Origin: Anaerolineae bacterium
GTDB taxonomy: Bacteria > Chloroflexota > Anaerolineae > Aggregatilineales > Phototrophicaceae
Assembly (NCBI GenBank): GCA_022823165.1
Contig: JAJDXR010000044.1
Location: 23,854-87,853, forward strand
Length of the DNA stretch: 64,000 nt
Reading direction: 5' to 3'
A program made the translations under genes and the position numbers. Of the stretch, positions 3 through 33,794 are shown in pieces; positions within the stretch are counted from its first letter, which is position 1, and the number at the start of each line of letters is the position of its first letter. The notes below the pieces were generated by a model. It did not search any database. It was given only the letters and a program-made list of their open reading frames with translations, and was not told where the DNA came from.

Positions 3-1154
3 ATCGGCGGCTTGATGGTCTTCAGCGCTACCTGGGATTGGAGCAACCAGACCTACGGAACGGCTTCGGGGTTCTTCGTCGAGGAACATCTGCGCAATGT
101 CATTCTCTCGACCATCGCCCTGTTTTTCTTCGCCACTATCGACTATCGCTTTTGGAAGCAATTCGCCATCTGGATGCTGCTCTTTACAATTGTTTCGCTG
201 GTATTGGTGAGAATTTACGGCGAACCGATATTCGGCGCTCGGCGCTCATTTTCCGGCGGCCGCTTGCAGCCGGGGGAGTTGGCGGAATTTACCGTTGTGC
301 TATACATGGCAGCCTGGCTGGGTTCGAAGCAGGCTCGGGTCGACAGTTTACTGTTCGGGCTGTTGCCCTTCCTGGCGGTCGTTGGCGTGATCTCCGGCTT
401 GATAGTCATCCAGCCAGACCTCAGCTCAGCCGGCATCGTGGCTTTGACAGCCGGCGTCATATTCTTCGTCGCCGGCGCCAATCTGTTTCACATACTGGCT
501 TTGGGGGGTATTACGACAGCCGTCAGCATAATCGTCATACAATCCTGGCCTTACGCCCAGAACCGCATCGCCAATTTCCTCGCCGGCTTGAGCGACATCA
601 CCTTGACTGATTATCACACCTTGCAGGCCATCACCGCTTTCGTGCGCGGGGGCTGGATCGGCGTGGGCGTCGGCCAGTCACAGCAGAAGTTCGGCGCGCT
701 GCCGGCGCCGCATACCGACAGTATCTTCGCCATCGTCGGCGAGGAGCTTGGCGTGCTGGGCGCGGCGGTAGTTGTCGCTTTGTATATCGCCTTTGCCATT
801 CGCGGCTTTCAGATGGCGCGAATCGCCAAGGACAACTTCGGCTCCCTGCTCTGCGTCGGCTTCACTTCCTGGGTGATCATCCAGGCTCTTCTGAATATCG
901 CGGTTATGACCGGCGTCATCCCTTCAACGGGCGTACCCTTGCCCTTCATCAGTTTTGGCGGGTCGTCGCTGATGGTAGTCATGATCGGCGTCGGGCTGAT
1001 GCTCAGCGTCCACCGCGTAGCTACGCGGCCGAAACCAACTTCGGAACGGAGAAGCGATATTGCGAATATTGATCGGAGCTGGCGGCACAGGCGGGCACGT
1101 CTATCCGGCCTTGGCGACCGCGCAGGCGCTACTCCAGCTGCTCCAAAAGAATGA
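3..1154 (+). CDS. ftsW: Cell division SEDS glycosyltransferase FtsW (5' partial)
   Basis: Membrane peptidoglycan polymerase of the SEDS family that polymerises lipid II at the division septum. The frame is open to the window edge, so the N-terminus and first membrane helix are missing. The visible part keeps many hydrophobic helices, the QPDLSSA segment with the conserved Asp, and the C-terminal block around PLPFISFGGSS typical of FtsW/RodA/SpoVE. The call of FtsW over RodA rests on position, directly before murG and the rest of a dcw cluster. The last 32 or so codons form a basic, low-complexity tail that overlaps murG in another frame, which is a longer overlap than usual. Confidence 0.9.
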   Translation: MGGLMVFSATWDWSNQTYGTASGFFVEEHLRNVILSTIALFFFATIDYRFWKQFAIWMLLFTIVSLVLVRIYGEPIFGARRSFSGGRLQPGELAEFTVVLYMAAWLGSKQARVDSLLFGLLPFLAVVGVISGLIVIQPDLSSAGIVALTAGVIFFVAGANLFHILALGGITTAVSIIVIQSWPYAQNRIANFLAGLSDITLTDYHTLQAITAFVRGGWIGVGVGQSQQKFGALPAPHTDSIFAIVGEELGVLGAAVVVALYIAFAIRGFQMARIAKDNFGSLLCVGFTSWVIIQALLNIAVMTGVIPSTGVPLPFISFGGSSLMVVMIGVGLMLSVHRVATRPKPTSERRSDIANIDRSWRHRRARLSGLGDRAGATPAAPKE

Positions 1155-2172
1155 TGAAGCGCCCGAGCTGTATTTCATCGGCGCGGTCGGGGGTATGGAG
1201 CGCAAGCTGGTGACGGAATCGAGCCTAGATTTCAAAGCCTATCATGAGGTCTTGGCGGGTCCTGTTCACGGCGTCAATCCCATTCGCTTACTGATCAGCC
1301 TGACAAAGTTGAAATTGGGCGCCATACAGTCCTTTGTCCAGCTCATGCGAGTTCGCCCACAGGTCATTCTGCTCACCGGCGGCTGGGCTAACCTGCCCGT
1401 GGCGCTAAGCGCCCGTCTGCTGCGCATTCCCATTGTCATCTATCTGCCTGATATTGAACCCGGGCTGACGATCAAGGCGCTGCAGCCCTTTGCCCACAAG
1501 ATCGCCATCACTGTGGCGCAGTCAGCCCGCTTTTTCCCGCGAGAGAAAACAATCGTCACCGGCTACCCGCTTTTGGAAAGTCGCATCAGCGCCAGCAAAG
1601 CGCAGGCCTGGCGGCATTTTGGCCTGGATGCCCAACGCAAGACTTTGCTGGTCTTCGGCGGCAGCCGCGGCGCGCGAAGCATAAATATCGCGCTGGCGGA
1701 AAATTTGCGGCGCCTGTTGGATAGCGGGATTCAGGTGCTGCACGTTACCGGTGAATTGGATTGGGAACGCTCGCAGCGGCAGCTTGGCGCGCTGGCGGAG
1801 CACCCTCATTATCATCCCTTCGCCTATTTGCACGAAGAGATGGGGCTGGCCTTCGCCGCGGCTGACCTGGCGCTGTGTCGGGCCGGCGCCAGCACCTTGG
1901 CGGAGCTGCCCCTGTTTGAGCTGCCGGGCATCCTGGCGCCCTATCCCTATGCCTGGCGATACCAGAAAGTGAACGCCGATTATCTCGCCGAAGCCGGCGC
2001 CGCAGTCCGTCTAAACGACGAAGACCTGGCTGAAAAACTCTATGATACGGTGGCCGGCCTGATCCTTGATGACGCGCGACTAAGCAGCATGCGCGACAAA
2101 TCGAGGGCGCTGGCGAATCCAGATGGCGCGCGGCGGCTGGCGGACTTGCTGCGCGAAATCGGCCGGGACTGA
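1060..2172 (+). CDS. murG: UDP-GlcNAc--lipid I N-acetylglucosaminyltransferase MurG
   Basis: Adds GlcNAc to lipid I on the cytoplasmic membrane face to make lipid II. 370 residues, the usual family length. The glycine-rich N-terminal loop GAGGTGGHVYPAL begins at residue 6 and the C-terminal donor-binding part contains RAGASTLAE. The start is a TTG at 1060 preceded by the purine-rich ACGGAGAAG at a normal distance; this start lies inside the 3' end of ftsW, implying translational coupling. The gap to murC is enlarged by an inserted repeat element. Confidence 0.93.
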   Translation: MRILIGAGGTGGHVYPALATAQALLQLLQKNDEAPELYFIGAVGGMERKLVTESSLDFKAYHEVLAGPVHGVNPIRLLISLTKLKLGAIQSFVQLMRVRPQVILLTGGWANLPVALSARLLRIPIVIYLPDIEPGLTIKALQPFAHKIAITVAQSARFFPREKTIVTGYPLLESRISASKAQAWRHFGLDAQRKTLLVFGGSRGARSINIALAENLRRLLDSGIQVLHVTGELDWERSQRQLGALAEHPHYHPFAYLHEEMGLAFAAADLALCRAGASTLAELPLFELPGILAPYPYAWRYQKVNADYLAEAGAAVRLNDEDLAEKLYDTVAGLILDDARLSSMRDKSRALANPDGARRLADLLREIGRD

Positions 2173-2184
2173 CATGCTGGAGCC

Positions 2185-2339
2185 GGGAGTGTCTATTGTA
2201 TTGGATGCGTTTTCCCTTCGACCCAAAGAAAAAACTCTGTGCCGGCGGGCAGTGTCTACGCGCCCCTCAGTGTCTCAGTGGTGAATTAACCTGTGCCAAG
2301 CTCGACATTCAGGAAATATCCACCATATTAGTCACTCCC
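2185..2339 (+). mobile_element. MITE-like element, copy A (155 bp) between murG and murC
   Basis: Begins GGGAGTGTCTA and ends TTAGTCACTCCC, giving terminal inverted repeats of about 11-12 bp with one or two mismatches. It is flanked on both sides by the perfect 8-bp direct repeat CTGGAGCC (2177-2184 and 2340-2347), a target-site duplication. Most of it aligns at high identity with the reverse complement of 30388-30519; copy A carries about 20 extra bases in its middle. No transposase is encoded. The 60-codon reading frame that spans it is not treated as a gene. Confidence 0.88.
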
Positions 2340-2379: not shown

Positions 2380-3762
2380 ATGATTCCGCTGCTACCCGGC
2401 GCCCGGATTCACTTGATCGGCATCGGCGGCGCCGGTTTGTCGGCTATTGCCCGCATTCTGCTGGAGCGCGGCTGCGCGGTCAGCGGTTCCGATTTGCAGG
2501 CCAGCGAAAGCGCTGAGCGGCTGGCGGCGGCTGGCGCGCGCGTGTTTCAGGGTCATCAGGCTGATAATGTAGCGGAAGCCGACGCCGTGCTGGCCACCTC
2601 AGCCGTGGGCGACGATCATATCGAGGTGGTTTCAGCCAGAGCTCGCGGCATACCCGTTTTCCGACGCAAAGCCTTCATGCGCAGCCTGCTGCAAGGCTGT
2701 GATACGATCGCTGTTGCCGGCACACACGGGAAGACGACTACCACATCCATGATCATCCATATTCTGGAGTCAGCCGGTAAAAACCCCAGTTACATCGTCG
2801 GCGGCGCCATGGGCAACACCGGCAAAAATGCCGCCGTTGGCCGCGGCGATTCCTTTGTCATAGAAGCTGACGAATACGGCAACATGTTTCATGGGCTTGA
2901 CCCGAACCTGGCTGTCGTCACCTCGGTCGAACATGACCACCCGGATTTCTTCCAGTCGCCGCGGGAGCTGAGCGAAGCATTTGAGCGCTTCGTCGATTTG
3001 CTCGGGCGCGACGGCATCTTGGTCGCCTGCGCCGACGACGCCGGCGCGCGCGCCCTCGCCGACTCGCGCCGGCTAAGCGGAGGCCGGGCGCTTAGCTACG
3101 GTATTACTTGCGCTGATGCCGATTGGCAAGCGACCGATCTGGATTTCTCGGGTCCAGCCACGCGCTTCACCGTCAGACGACAAGGCATCGCCTTGGGCGA
3201 AGTGAGCCTCGGCCTACCCGGCAGACACAATGTGCTGAACGCGCTGGCTGCCCTCAGCGTAGCCAATGAACGCGGCGTCGCCGTTGAGCGGGGCGCGGCC
3301 GCGCTCAGCAGCTTCCTGGCCACCGCGCGCCGCTTCGAAATCCGGGGCGCCCGCGCTGGCGTGGTCGTGGTTGACGATTACGCTCACCATCCCACCGAGA
3401 TTAGAGTCAACCTGCAGGCTGCCCGTTTGCGCTATCCGCAGCATCAGATCTGGGCGATCTGGCAACCGCATACCTACTCGCGCATGCAAGAATTCTGGGC
3501 TGATTTCGCGGCGGCTTTCCAGGATGCGGACCAGGTGCTGGTCACGCCGATTTACGCGGCGCGCGAATCACCCATAGACGGGGTGACCAGCGCCGCGCTG
3601 GTCGCGGAAATGCAGTCCCGGCAGCCCGCGGCCTACGCCCCAAGTTTCAAAGACGCGGTTGACCTGCTGAATCGCTCAGTCCGCGCGCCGGCTGTCCTGC
3701 TCATTTTCAGCGCTGGCGACGCCAACATCATCGCTGATATGTATCTGAATAGCCCGGCCTAA
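2380..3762 (+). CDS. murC: UDP-N-acetylmuramate--L-alanine ligase MurC
   Basis: Cytoplasmic ATP-dependent ligase adding L-Ala to UDP-MurNAc. 460 residues, full length. The N-terminal Rossmann loop GIGGAGLSAIARILL is at residues 12-26 and the Mur-ligase P-loop GTHGKTTTTSM near residue 113; the segments EADEYGNMF and the central HDHPDFF are also family-like. AGGAAGG about 12 nt before the ATG at 2380 supports the start. The MITE-like element immediately upstream separates it from murG, so its expression could depend on read-through of that element. Confidence 0.95.
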   Translation: MIPLLPGARIHLIGIGGAGLSAIARILLERGCAVSGSDLQASESAERLAAAGARVFQGHQADNVAEADAVLATSAVGDDHIEVVSARARGIPVFRRKAFMRSLLQGCDTIAVAGTHGKTTTTSMIIHILESAGKNPSYIVGGAMGNTGKNAAVGRGDSFVIEADEYGNMFHGLDPNLAVVTSVEHDHPDFFQSPRELSEAFERFVDLLGRDGILVACADDAGARALADSRRLSGGRALSYGITCADADWQATDLDFSGPATRFTVRRQGIALGEVSLGLPGRHNVLNALAALSVANERGVAVERGAAALSSFLATARRFEIRGARAGVVVVDDYAHHPTEIRVNLQAARLRYPQHQIWAIWQPHTYSRMQEFWADFAAAFQDADQVLVTPIYAARESPIDGVTSAALVAEMQSRQPAAYAPSFKDAVDLLNRSVRAPAVLLIFSAGDANIIADMYLNSPA

Positions 3763-17620: not shown

Positions 17621-19531
17621 CTAAGCCTCGACCGTGAACGCCGCGATGGGCAAGATCGTTCCAACTTCGCTCGTGGACAGGTCCTGGCCGGTGACCTTCG
17701 CGCTGGCATGATGCCGGTCGTACACGGTGACAACGACTCTGTAATCGCCAGGATCGAGGTCAGCCGCCGAAAGCTCGACGACGTACCATTTCAGCACTTC
17801 ATGGTAGAGATGGCGGTCTGGCGCCTGCGCTACATTCCGCCAATCGGCCGTGATGATCTGTATTGAGACGTTGTATTGCTGGAGCAGCGCTTCATCGTCC
17901 ACTTCCCAGCCCGTCACAACGCGAATGGCGCCGTCTTCGCCGCCCATCTCGGCATATTTGTCGACGATTCGTATGCCATTTTCGTAATGTATCGGCTGGT
18001 ATTCGTGGTCGCAGGCAAGCGGTCTGTTGACATAACGCTGGACGAATAGATCAGTAGTGTCGATGACGACGCCGCAAGCCCGGTAGGCAGGCAGCAAGTA
18101 GTCTTCGACGAGCGCCAGATTCCCGGGCGGCGACATCGGATTGTAGGTGAGCAAGAGGTAAGGATGATCGTCAAGCCTTTGCGGCATGTCGGCCGCCAGA
18201 GCTTCCGCATCGTAGGAGGACGGCAGGAACACGCCGTCGAGACCCAGGAGCGTCTCCATATAATAGTCTGCGGTGGATTTGACGCGCTTACCTCGCCAAT
18301 TGACAAAATCGGTTGCGGTGAAACCGACCACGAAGTCCTGCGCCTGAGCCTTGTCTTTCAGCGCTTCGACATAGTCGGCAAGCGGCGGATAAGCGTTGAC
18401 GATCGCCACAGTGCCTTGGTGATCCAGATAGTCGTCGGCGCGCCGCAGGGCAAAGCCCGATACCAGATAGGCCGTCAGCAACAGTGGCGCAATCCAGCGC
18501 GGCTTTAAGCAGGCCAAGCCGAAACCTATCACCATGATCCACATCGTCCAGGATACAAAAAAGTAACGCGAGCGGCGCAAGGGAATCAGCCCAACCGCTT
18601 CGTTGGTGATTAGCAAGCTGCCCAAGACAGCAATCCCCAGCCACAAAAAGGGGAATACGCGCCGAAAGGCGTCGCGTCGGCGCAAGCCAAACAGGGCGGC
18701 GGACAGAACGATGAGCAAGACAATCCAGTTGTCGTTGCTAAGCAATCGGATGAATATGTCTATGGCTTGCGCCAGCGTGATGGCGTCAGAGGCCGTATCA
18801 AACTTCGTCAACAAACCATGCAAGGTAACCGGCAACCAGGGCAAAAAGAGCAGACCAGCGAAAATCATGGCGAGCGCCACTTGAATCCAAAGCTGGCGCG
18901 GTCTTACAAAAAGCAGATGATAGCTGCCCAGAGCTATAAGAAAGAAAATTGAGAATGGTTGTGTATAGAGCAAGGCTGCCGCGCCAGCCGACAATGCCGC
19001 CCAATGAAACCAGCGTCCGCCCTGCCCTCTTCGAATGAGGAAAAAGTAATGCCAGGCCAGCGCCATGACCAACATGAACTGCAGGGAATACATACGTATT
19101 TCGTGCAGGTAATCCAGCCAAAAGACATTCAAAGCGATATAGGCTGCAGCCCAGAGACCGGTCCATTTGTCAATGAAGTCCGCCCCCAGGCGAAAAGTCC
19201 AGGCAAGAGCCAGCAGACCAAAATAAAGCGGCAAGCAGCGCAGTACAACATGATGCCAGCCAACCAGCGCCGCCCACCCGGCGACCAGCTCAAAGAATAA
19301 CGGCGTGTGCTTGGGGCTATGATCGCGCACTGACTCCAAGACATCAATCGGTGAAAAGGGACCGGTAACTCCGCCGGCATGGCTGATTGAGGTCAGCTCG
19401 TCGTACCAGATCAAATCAGCGCTCAAACCCGGCGCCGTCATGAAGGTTACCAGCAGCAGCAACGCCAGCATCAAGGTCCGCGGCGGCGAAATGTATAATT
19501 TTACCTGCTCGATTTTCGGGCGATTGTCCAT
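17621..19531 (-). CDS. GT39/ArnT-like membrane glycosyltransferase with C-terminal beta domain (paralogue 2)
   Basis: 636 residues. An N-terminal hydrophobic domain with about 10 or more membrane segments carries the Asp-Glu pair in the first extracytoplasmic loop (LIWYDELTSISHAGG), the hallmark of polyprenyl-phosphate-sugar-using GT-C enzymes. A soluble C-terminal portion of about 250 residues follows, ending with a segment (NGIRIVDKYAEM... to GDYRVVVTVYDR) shared with the gene upstream. The pair are tandem duplicates, translated from one message, 3 nt apart. Acceptor unknown. Confidence 0.8.
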   Translation of the reverse strand: MDNRPKIEQVKLYISPPRTLMLALLLLVTFMTAPGLSADLIWYDELTSISHAGGVTGPFSPIDVLESVRDHSPKHTPLFFELVAGWAALVGWHHVVLRCLPLYFGLLALAWTFRLGADFIDKWTGLWAAAYIALNVFWLDYLHEIRMYSLQFMLVMALAWHYFFLIRRGQGGRWFHWAALSAGAAALLYTQPFSIFFLIALGSYHLLFVRPRQLWIQVALAMIFAGLLFLPWLPVTLHGLLTKFDTASDAITLAQAIDIFIRLLSNDNWIVLLIVLSAALFGLRRRDAFRRVFPFLWLGIAVLGSLLITNEAVGLIPLRRSRYFFVSWTMWIMVIGFGLACLKPRWIAPLLLTAYLVSGFALRRADDYLDHQGTVAIVNAYPPLADYVEALKDKAQAQDFVVGFTATDFVNWRGKRVKSTADYYMETLLGLDGVFLPSSYDAEALAADMPQRLDDHPYLLLTYNPMSPPGNLALVEDYLLPAYRACGVVIDTTDLFVQRYVNRPLACDHEYQPIHYENGIRIVDKYAEMGGEDGAIRVVTGWEVDDEALLQQYNVSIQIITADWRNVAQAPDRHLYHEVLKWYVVELSAADLDPGDYRVVVTVYDRHHASAKVTGQDLSTSEVGTILPIAAFTVEA

Positions 19532-19534
19532 GAG

Positions 19535-21448
19535 CTAGCCAGCGATTGTAAAAGAGAGCGCCGAAAATACGTCGCCGGTGGAAGCGCTGAGCAAATCTGT
19601 GCCCGCTACCCTTTGAAGATTTTCGCGGTCGTATAGGATGACCATGACGTTGTAATCCCCGGCCGGTAAATCGGCGGTAGAAAGTTCTACCAGGTACCAA
19701 GTCAGAACATCGTTGTACAAATGCCGATCAGGCGCTTGACTTACGCTGCGCCAATCTGTCGTAATTATCTGAATCGAGACGTTGTATTCGTCGAGTTGTC
19801 GTTCATCGGCAACTTCCCAGCCGGTAAGCACGCGAATCGACTGCTGCTGACGATCGAAGTCGGCGAATCTGTCGATAATTCTGATGCCATTGTCATAGGC
19901 AATCGATCGGCGTTGACGGCCACATTCGAGACTGTGGTAAGCATAACGCCTGGCGTAAATTGCGCCCGAATCTACCACCACTTCGCAGGGCCTATACTGC
20001 GCATCCAGCAGCGCCTGCACTTCATTAAAATTCGCGGGCAAGTCTTGCGGTTCGTAGACAAACGTCAAATAGGGGTAGTGGCCCAGGCGCCGGTTGAACT
20101 CATGGCGCAGTTCGCTGCCTTGGAGTTCGGCGCCAATAAATGCGCCATGCGCCCCGAGCAGAACTTTGGAATAGTAGTCAACCGTGCTGAGACCGAATCG
20201 CAAACCGGAATTCAAGAATGAGGCTTGTGTGAAGCCCAACAAGGCTTCATGGGGGCGGACCTTGGACTTTAGCGCGTCGGCGAAGCGATGCAAGGGCGGG
20301 TGCGGCACGAGCAAGGAATGATGCCCGGCATAGGTCCAATGCTCCGCTTGCCGATAGATGCCGTAGCCGCCGGCCATCCACAGGACCACAAACACGCTCG
20401 CCGTCAGCCGCCATTGGGGAATTGCAGCGATAAAATGCGCCGACAGCAGGATGGCGAGAGCCAGCGCCACCAAAAAATAGCGCAGCCGCCTCGTCGACAC
20501 AAATGGATCAAGCGCGTGGAACAGCAGCAGCGACAGCGTCACCGTAGCGAAGATCAATAGCAGCCGCCATATTGCCGAGGACCGCTGCCGCCAAAGCGTC
20601 CACCCGGCTGCAGCAATCACAGCCAGCCACAAGAGATCGACGCCGTTTGCCGTAACGTGAGCCAGCAAGGGAACAACATCCAAGGCGGACAGCGCCTCTG
20701 CTTGTACCGAACGGCTATCAGTCGCCTCTGAAACGCCGGCCAGGATCAACGGAAGGTAGGGCAGAAACATGAAGACTCCCGCCGCCCAGGTACTGACCAC
20801 AATCCACCAATTGCGATCCTTGGCCACTGTCAGCAAATGATGAGCGCCCAGACCCAACAGAACAAAGGGGGAAAAGGGATGCGTATAGAGCAATGCGCCG
20901 GTTACCGCAGCAAAGCTGACCCAGGCGAGCGCGCCCGTCTTTTTGCCCACTGCCAGCCGCCAATACTGCCATATATGGATGATGCTCAGCAGCAGCCAGA
21001 GGCTGTAATTGCGCAACTCGTGAAAATAGATGACGACGATGGCGTTGCTTGCGAAAAGCGCGGCCGCCAGCCAGCCCGTTTTACGATCAAAGACCTCGGC
21101 GCCTAACCGGTACAGGCAGGCGATGGACAAGACGCCAAATAGCAGCGAGGCATAGCGCAGGGGCGCCTGCGACCAGCCCACCCATTGCGCCCAAGCCGCC
21201 CCGACGATGTAGTACAATGGCACATGGTCGGGTATATGCTGGCTGATTTCGGCGACGATTTTCTCGACGCTGTAGGGAGGGTCTTCCGCCCCCATGGCGG
21301 CAACCGAGGCCATTTCGTCGACCCAAAGTATGTCCGCGTTAAGCTGAGCGGCGCCCAAGGCAAAGCCCAGAAGCAGGACAGCCACCATCGCGGCGAGATA
21401 AAATCCGCCCGGTCGAGTGACGCTCCGCCTCTTAGCCATGTAGCGCAT
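19535..21448 (-). CDS. GT39/ArnT-like membrane glycosyltransferase with C-terminal beta domain (paralogue 1)
   Basis: 637 residues, tandem paralogue of the gene at 17621-19531. First loop ADILWVDEMASVAAMG carries the Asp-Glu pair, followed by many membrane helices and a C-terminal extracytoplasmic domain with NGIRIIDRFADF, LTGWEVADE and YNVSIQIIT. The ATG at 21448 (or 21439) overlaps the end of the upstream acetyltransferase gene, so the operon is translationally coupled. GT-C enzymes transfer a sugar from a polyprenyl-phosphate donor to protein or lipid outside the membrane. Confidence 0.8.
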   Translation of the reverse strand: MRYMAKRRSVTRPGGFYLAAMVAVLLLGFALGAAQLNADILWVDEMASVAAMGAEDPPYSVEKIVAEISQHIPDHVPLYYIVGAAWAQWVGWSQAPLRYASLLFGVLSIACLYRLGAEVFDRKTGWLAAALFASNAIVVIYFHELRNYSLWLLLSIIHIWQYWRLAVGKKTGALAWVSFAAVTGALLYTHPFSPFVLLGLGAHHLLTVAKDRNWWIVVSTWAAGVFMFLPYLPLILAGVSEATDSRSVQAEALSALDVVPLLAHVTANGVDLLWLAVIAAAGWTLWRQRSSAIWRLLLIFATVTLSLLLFHALDPFVSTRRLRYFLVALALAILLSAHFIAAIPQWRLTASVFVVLWMAGGYGIYRQAEHWTYAGHHSLLVPHPPLHRFADALKSKVRPHEALLGFTQASFLNSGLRFGLSTVDYYSKVLLGAHGAFIGAELQGSELRHEFNRRLGHYPYLTFVYEPQDLPANFNEVQALLDAQYRPCEVVVDSGAIYARRYAYHSLECGRQRRSIAYDNGIRIIDRFADFDRQQQSIRVLTGWEVADERQLDEYNVSIQIITTDWRSVSQAPDRHLYNDVLTWYLVELSTADLPAGDYNVMVILYDRENLQRVAGTDLLSASTGDVFSALSFTIAG

Positions 21449-29039: not shown

Positions 29040-29126
<87 letters not shown>

Positions 29127-30221: not shown

Positions 30222-30387
30222 TGTTTCTCCCCTTATCAGTTTCATGTCCGCTACTTGTACTACGCACGGAGTCGCATTCTGTTCCAAGCAGATCTTTGGT
30301 CATTCTTTATAGCCGCGCTAATCACCGGGCGCTGAAAGGCGCCAGATTTGAGCCCGCGCTAAACAGCCCTGGCTGGTCTGCTATACT

Positions 30388-30519
30388 GGGAGTGGCTAAC
30401 ATGGTGGATATCTCCTGAATGCCGAGCAGGCACAGGTTGATTCACCACAGAGACACAGAGGGCGCAGAGATTTTTCTTTGGGTCGAAGGGAAACTGCATC
30501 CACTACAATAGACACTCCC
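30388..30519 (-). mobile_element. MITE-like element, copy B (132 bp)
   Basis: Runs GGGAGTGGCTAA ... TAGACACTCCC on the plus strand, i.e. inverted relative to copy A at 2185-2339. It is flanked by the perfect 8-bp duplication GCTATACT (30380-30387 and 30520-30527). The two copies align along their whole length except about 20 bases present only in copy A. It contains a CACAGAG-rich stretch related to other short repeats in the window. It lies between the secreted-protein gene and the LOG-family gene. Confidence 0.88.
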
Positions 30520-30563
30520 GCTATACTCGCGCGCAGCCTGGCCGAGTGGAAATCGCAGAGACT

Positions 30564-31088
30564 ATGAAGATTATTACCGTTTTTGGCAGTTCCCAGGTAC
30601 GTCCACGCCAGCCCGACTATGAAGACGCGCTGACCATCGGTCGGGCGCTGGCGCAAAGCGGATACGCGGTCATGAGCGGCGGCTACTACGGCGTCATGGA
30701 AGCGGTGAGCAAAGGCGCGCGGGCTGGCGGCGGCCATGTCATCGGCGTAACCACCGACCAGATCGGCCTGCAATTTAATGTCGAGCCTAACGTCTACAAC
30801 AGCGAAGTCGTCAACTTTGCCGACCTGCGCGACCGTCTGCTGTACATGGTGGAGAACGCAGACGCCTACCTGGCTATGCCGGGCGGCATCGGCACTTTGC
30901 ATGAAATCGCGGAAACCTGGGAATTGATGCGCATCGGCGGCGTGCCGCGGCGCCCGTTTGTTTGTTACGGCAGCCTGTGGGCGACCATAATCGGGGAGCT
31001 GGAAAACAGCGCTTATCTTGCCGATGGCTACCAGGGCATGATCAAATTCGCGCAGCGCCCGAACGAAGCGCTGACATTACTCGCCTGA
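30564..31088 (+). CDS. LOG-family protein (Rossmann, nucleotide 5'-monophosphate hydrolase type)
   Basis: About 174 residues from ATG 30564. ITVFGSSQVRP starts the Rossmann fold, SGGYYGVMEAVSKGARAGGG replaces the usual GGGxxGxM loop, and MPGGIGTLHEIAETW corresponds to the PGGxGTxxE active-site motif of the LOG (lysine-decarboxylase-like) family. Members release free cytokinin-type bases or are general phosphoribohydrolases. An earlier in-frame GTG at 30546 is possible. The gene begins 44 nt after MITE copy B. Confidence 0.85.
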   Translation: MKIITVFGSSQVRPRQPDYEDALTIGRALAQSGYAVMSGGYYGVMEAVSKGARAGGGHVIGVTTDQIGLQFNVEPNVYNSEVVNFADLRDRLLYMVENADAYLAMPGGIGTLHEIAETWELMRIGGVPRRPFVCYGSLWATIIGELENSAYLADGYQGMIKFAQRPNEALTLLA

Positions 31089-33721: not shown

Positions 33722-33794
33722 TCCGTAGTAGCTCAATTGGCAGAGCAATCGGCTGTTAACCGATCGGTTCTTGGTTCAAGTCCAAGCTACGGAG
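33722..33794 (+). tRNA. tRNA-Asn (anticodon GTT)
   Basis: Acceptor TCCGTAG (33722-33728) pairs with CTACGGA (33787-33793), discriminator G. Anticodon stem ATCGG/CCGAT holds loop CTGTTAA, anticodon GTT. The T loop GTTCAAGTC is normal. CCA is not encoded. Confidence 0.95.

Follow-up and report, generated by a model that had tools for sequence, protein, structure and literature searches.

Two short elements in the analysed window (the whole stretch of 64,000 nucleotides), here called copies A and B, belong in our estimate (probability of roughly 0.8) to one MITE family with 8-bp target duplications; its likely mover in trans is the transposase of an IS1-family element that has the same ends. Copy A (155 bp, plus strand, 2185-2339), recognized by its ends, its duplication and the family of copies to which it belongs, lies between murG (1060-2172, plus strand; PF04101, PF03033) and murC (2380-3762, plus strand; PF01225, PF08245, PF02875), and both genes are open on either side of it with their Pfam domains, in keeping with an earlier sequence-only reading in which neither was lost. 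Copy B (132 bp, minus strand, 30388-30519) lies upstream of a LOG/SLOG-type gene (30564-31088, plus strand; PF18306, PF03641).

Both elements are flanked by perfect 8-bp repeats, namely CTGGAGCC at 2177-2184 and 2340-2347, read directly on either side of copy A, and GCTATACT around copy B, with an upstream occurrence at 30380-30387, before which a conserved TCTG is retained, and a downstream one at 30520-30527. The sequence-only reading had described a 155-bp and a 132-bp element of high identity in opposite orientation, and this is borne out both by a repeat search of the window, which pairs the two copies through inverted arms of 60 nt (92%) and 40 nt (90%), and by their alignment, where a 22-column block and one single base are present in copy A only, next to scattered substitutions. 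The left (2185-2208, plus strand) and right (2316-2339, minus strand) ends of copy A are IS1-like over about 24 bp, and its core (2235-2283, plus strand) is a CTCTGTG-type dispersed repeat broken by a 22-bp hairpin module, GGCGGGCAGTGTCTACGCGCCC (2244-2265, plus strand), that is absent from copy B. Elsewhere in the window, a 212-nt direct repeat of 71% identity (17715-17926 and 19626-19837) falls within a pair of neighboring ORFs on the minus strand (636 and 637 aa) that are perhaps tandem paralogues.

Copies of the family in the host genome

The host genome (G000) is a 4.1 Mb Chloroflexota assembly in 94 contigs, and a MurC search of named genomes returned 10 relatives, the three nearest being MAGs that carry the label Chloroflexi or Anaerolineae bacterium (75-79% identity). 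A 16-mer of the left end, allowing at most 2 mismatches, has 59 matches in this genome, including a few right ends that resemble left ends, versus 0 for the backward pattern. A script run over the 59 fetched host loci and the window yielded a table of 52 elements in which both ends are present; copies truncated at a contig edge or lacking a clear right end were excluded. These 52 complete copies are short (14 of 117-134 bp, 18 of 147-167 bp and 20 of 313-380 bp), have terminal inverted repeats and carry no transposase gene. A recognizable target duplication accompanies 33 of them (exact over 8 bp in 13, exact over 7 bp in 9, and 7 of 8 bases in 11) and is not seen in the other 19 under the test used, while a control in which the upstream and downstream flanks came from different copies matched in 1 of 2652 pairings. 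The target sites are varied. The sequence-only reading had proposed, from copies A and B, that a MITE family had inserted on independent occasions with 8-bp duplications, and had suggested a search for further copies in the genome, of which more than 50 were found; target-site duplications, several copies and uninserted sites are all on record for the family.

Mean divergence from the class consensus amounts to 6.3% for 14 copies of 110-140 bp, 4.9% for 18 copies of 145-170 bp and 10.2% for 17 copies of 310-340 bp. For 28 copies, 700 bp of flanking sequence was available on each side; 7 of these copies are inserted in a mechanical open frame of at least 150 aa, as compared with 116 of 140 points chosen at random from this DNA, a scarcity that may reflect either target preference or the loss of harmful insertions.

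Two copies at contig ends, on C4 and C15, were considered as full-length parents and rejected, since their extra sequences are nested in the MITE and are also found elsewhere without it. Two repeats nested in contig-end MITE copies (L022 and L028) have further host copies, at 4 and at several places, respectively. No transposase was seen among the open frames listed for the copies on C24 and C57, the latter being an ordinary 133-bp MITE.

Ends shared with IS1-family elements

A contig-end sequence of a congener (L077 in G004) continues past the shared end into a reading frame, and a 35-residue peptide from this frame has matches in 19 of 61 genomes. An element of G039, L119, is 801 bp long, has the ends GGGAGTGTCTA...TAGACACTCCC and carries GGATTTCA on both sides; in this partner, the one whose duplication was measured, its length (8 bp) is that of the MITE duplications. 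Its first frame ends after a run of A and two overlapping open pieces make up the remainder, which may mean that L119 is inactive. The first frame matches the NCBIfam IS1 model at 4.7e-27 with 95.2 bits, below a cut-off of 100 that is set for whole proteins, and falls just below the cut-off of the Pfam InsA zinc ribbon, and the last frame lies above the cut-off of PF03400 (DDE_Tnp_IS1). Furthermore, a 246-residue IS1 protein of G022 (5.2e-53) passes both IS1 cut-offs (179.9 versus 100 and 76.2 versus 24.1 bits). IS1-family ends of a second kind, the GGTGA type, bound elements of 792-802 bp in five congeners.

The likeness between MITE and IS1 is confined to about 24 bp at each end. In G022, the right ends of the MITE and of IS1 are identical at 24 of 24 bases and then diverge. 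The consensus ends of the host MITEs agree with GTCTA-type ends (G000, G022, G004 and G013) at 18-20 of 24 bases, with those of G039 at 15-18 and with GGTGA-type ends at 10-17. Taken separately, the left-end consensus of the family matches the GTCTA-type IS1 ends of the genus at 18-20 and the right-end consensus at 19-20 of 24 bases.

The sequence-only reading had called for a full-length element able to move copies A and B, and transposase elements with the same ends do occur in relatives, while in the host assembly only a decayed one was met. This sole GTCTA-type IS1 copy found in the host (C42:87074; IS1 model 6.7e-13) has an end, GGGAGTGTCTATTTCGGTGGAT, that agrees with the two consensus ends of the MITEs at 19 and 20 of 24 bases, and shows no right end in the 1.1 kb fetched. 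Searches of the host using the C-terminal peptide and the first frame recovered no intact GTCTA-type copy among the 94 contigs, a result that in so fragmented an assembly is no proof of absence. GGTGA-type IS1 ends are represented in the host by 4 left and 7 right ends, most of them at contig edges, and all 7 host matches of the IS1 C-terminal peptide have ends of this type.

These observations leave some room for an account that we regard as rather unlikely, in which the MITEs are left over from a GTCTA-type IS1 of the past and any movement today would be driven by the resident GGTGA-type IS1, whose ends match only partly. Such an account would fit the prevalence of GGTGA-type ends in the host, the decay of the only GTCTA-type copy found there and the average distance of the MITE copies from their class consensus (4.9-10.2%). 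However, the MITE ends are nearer to the GTCTA type than to the GGTGA type, and the fragmentation of the assembly may conceal an intact GTCTA-type copy.

We favor movement of the MITE family by a transposase of an IS1 element with the same ends, a mechanism that we infer from the sequences. The transposase encoded by an autonomous IS1 would recognize the shared ends of about 24 bp, and the sequence between them would be inserted with 8-bp staggered cuts. We propose that, with recognition confined to these ends, the middle would be replaceable by other repeats. The position of the copies, mostly outside open frames, would let them persist, even between two essential genes.

Insertion sites and exchangeable middles

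A MurC search covered 35 genomes, and all 21 congeners besides the host yielded a murG-murC locus. In none of the 21 do IS1-type ends occur as a pair in the 600 bp before murC, and one of them shows a single end-like match at -441 from murC. Because several congeners have a different stretch in the murG-murC gap, not every site can be compared; the best alignable one, that of G004, agrees with the host through CTGACATGCTGGA and continues with its own murC. An exact allele of this gap with a single CTGGAGCC was sought among the congeners and not found. The murG-murC copy is likely one survivor among many insertions.

The site of copy B is clearer. No IS1-type ends are present in the fetched locus in any of the 21 congeners, T[CT]TGNTATACT precedes the LOG-type gene in every one of the 22 loci, host included, and exact GCTATACT is found at this locus in 16 of 21 relatives. 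In the host, the insertion of copy B split the conserved promoter-like sequence TCTGNTATACT and doubled GCTATACT. The distance from the downstream GCTATACT to the gene equals that of the single copy in G001, G018, G004 and G005, and TATACT remains at its old distance from the LOG-type gene through the target duplication. We take the conserved element to resemble an extended -10, and because of this likeness and of its conservation, we read the TCTGNTATACT-type element as a putative promoter. Copy B would then represent an insertion into a conserved promoter-like element whose core was left at its old distance by the target duplication. Clean empty sites were recovered for copy B, whose exact pre-insertion sequence was seen. 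For copy A, the site for which the sequence-only reading had asked for an empty allele in relatives, what stands is the absence of the insertion from 21 of 21 congeners and not the exact single-repeat allele.

It is very improbable that the copies are retained as regulatory cassettes of the neighboring genes and are not selfish elements. The location of copy B within the promoter-like element would suit such a role, as would the promoter-like matches around copy A, which number 2 versus 0.2 in shuffles, both weak, one lying after the copy and the other (9/12) inside it and reading towards murC. Against this, neither insertion occurs in any of the 21 congeners, the target sites of the family are varied, no terminator-like site was found around copy A, and neither copy matched Rfam. 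That search, at gathering scores over eight sources including the window, returned two tRNAs only; the tRNA matches (RF00005) lie at 29040-29126 and 33722-33794.

The middles of the MITEs are dispersed repeats that differ between species and are unlike IS1: in the copies read, they consist of the CTCTGTG-type repeat in the host, of the GAGCCTTGGCTCGCCC palindrome in G019 and of a CCCC-rich repeat in G022 and G003. An 18-mer of the host core has 98 matches in the host, some outside MITEs, and of 20 chosen core matches outside the tabulated copies, 8 were read as MITEs with worn or cut ends, one of them previously met without its right end, and 12 as core repeats without MITE ends. Members of the 335-bp class additionally contain, within the core, a unit of some 180 bp that is found in both orientations and has AGTAAGT-like ends (L024, L025 and L060). 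The CTCTGTG...GTGGTGAAT repeat also stands alone next to genes, without IS1-type ends, on G000:C16, C76, C81 and others (loci L247, L248, L250, L251, L256, L257, L259 and L261-L265). The family is a clear case, in a little-studied lineage, of IS1-type ends bounding unrelated, exchangeable middles.

The 22-bp hairpin module and comparison with known systems

The 22-bp module of copy A is more surprising than the MITE family itself. Its loop 10-mer, GTGTCTACGC, has 127 matches in the host versus 7 for the backward control and 282 versus 5 in G016; it exceeds this control in 30 of 34 genomes of the genus, with more than 100 matches in 17 of the 34, has 0 matches in G022 and G031 and falls below control in G030 and G033. 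Outside the genus, 27 genomes have 0-11 matches, near control. A sample of 147 contexts, which includes chance matches and 18 loci from unenriched genomes, contains 90 distinct 22-mers, and the counts that follow are inflated since module copies are related by descent. The 4-base arms are fully paired in 41 of the 90, as against 554 of 8010 (6.9%) when the arms are taken from different units. In the stem, 76.4% of the cells pair versus 50.8% in shuffles, 83 cells are changed on both sides versus 36.4, and the covariation score is 0.547 versus 0.198, with 0 of 500 shuffles as high and slid versions of the stem scoring 0.05-0.19. Two other measures do not set the module stem apart, namely the number of pairs with changes on both sides, reached by 498 of 500 shuffles, and that of further pair types, reached by 32 of 500.

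When 22 bp are removed from the contexts in silico, the resulting join has a near twin elsewhere in the fetched DNA for 77 of 144 contexts, while the other sizes and offsets tried give at most 29 (23 bp), 8 (24), 4 (21) and at most 3 (18-20, 25 and 26); a length of 22 bp thus prevails, with 23 bp perhaps occurring at times. With the cut placed 30-60 bp away, five of six controls yielded no twin and the sixth yielded 1 of 142. Twins exist for 51 of 110 contexts classed as non-MITE by a rough filter; 40 of these 51 were listed, and at least 2 of the 51 are MITE copies. Across the genus, the module sits at the hairpin tips of other repeats. Its hosts include GTAGGGG palindromes, CCCC-rich repeats and the CTCTGTG repeat, in which it lies at the same point in G000, G018 and G027, with a CTCGGTG form of that repeat in G008. 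Moreover, 5 of the 147 contexts (L309, L296, L301, L316 and L288) have a module inside the loop of another module.

On these sequence patterns, we tentatively suggest, at somewhat less than even odds, that the module may be a new miniature mobile unit, a constant-loop hairpin with interchangeable self-complementary 4-bp arms that would copy itself into hairpin tips, including its own loop, would have reached more than 100 loop copies in half of the genus genomes searched, and would hitch-hike in IS1-end MITEs. The covariation of the arms could stem from template switching within the hairpin. With its narrow size range, covarying stem and self-nesting, the module lends itself to tests of whether so small a DNA element spreads.

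Among known systems, IS1-family insertion sequences resemble the MITEs by their ends and 8-bp duplication, and the partners measure about 800 bp with an InsA-like zinc ribbon and an IS1 DDE domain, whereas the MITEs lack a transposase, span only 117-380 bp and are IS1-like over only about 24 bp per end. The sequence-only reading had likened the ends to those of the IS256 family, which has 8-bp duplications too and after which a zinc-binding domain model is named that also matches the partner's first frame (NF048018, at 3.1e-07), but membership in that family is effectively ruled out by the partner found, since the whole-protein model that fits is IS1 (L119 and, above cut-off, the G022 protein), the catalytic part matches DDE_Tnp_IS1 and the element measures only about 800 bp.

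As an IS1-end family, the elements can be set beside published MITEs. The MITE core string tried had no match in the open-access literature, in which MITE, IS1 family and Chloroflexi were not found together either, and no IS1-derived MITE was seen in the parts consulted of open-access listings (PMC2246112, PMC11448079, PMC3718332 and PMC6382973 among them). The family fits the type II MITEs as termed in PMC6382973, where, in the portion available, the term denotes ends flanking unrelated DNA: both are short and geneless, with terminal repeats, partner-like duplications and a core unrelated to the IS. Unlike in that description, the cores here vary between congeners while the ends stay alike, and these cores are dispersed repeats of the same genomes. 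The Sulfolobus MITEs SM3A and SMN1, with ISC1058 and ISC1733 as partners, are likewise non-autonomous copies reliant on resident IS, but the sections of PMC3718332 at hand mention no IS1-family ends for them.

For the module, the 20 open-access papers containing the loop 10-mer are, by their titles and the starts of their abstracts, not about genome repeats, and the nearest likeness is to GTAG-tagged REP palindromes. A stem-loop with a covarying stem, as in REP/RAYT systems, is present in the module, and a 5' GTAG start in only some of its units, while many of its hosts begin with GTAGGGG. According to the parts of PMC3733652 consulted, such REPs are also high-copy, some families having loop variants whose complementary GC-rich termini resemble the arms of the module. 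By contrast, the module combines one constant loop with varied arms, mostly within 22 bp, and it sits inside unrelated repeats, a non-palindromic core and its own loop.
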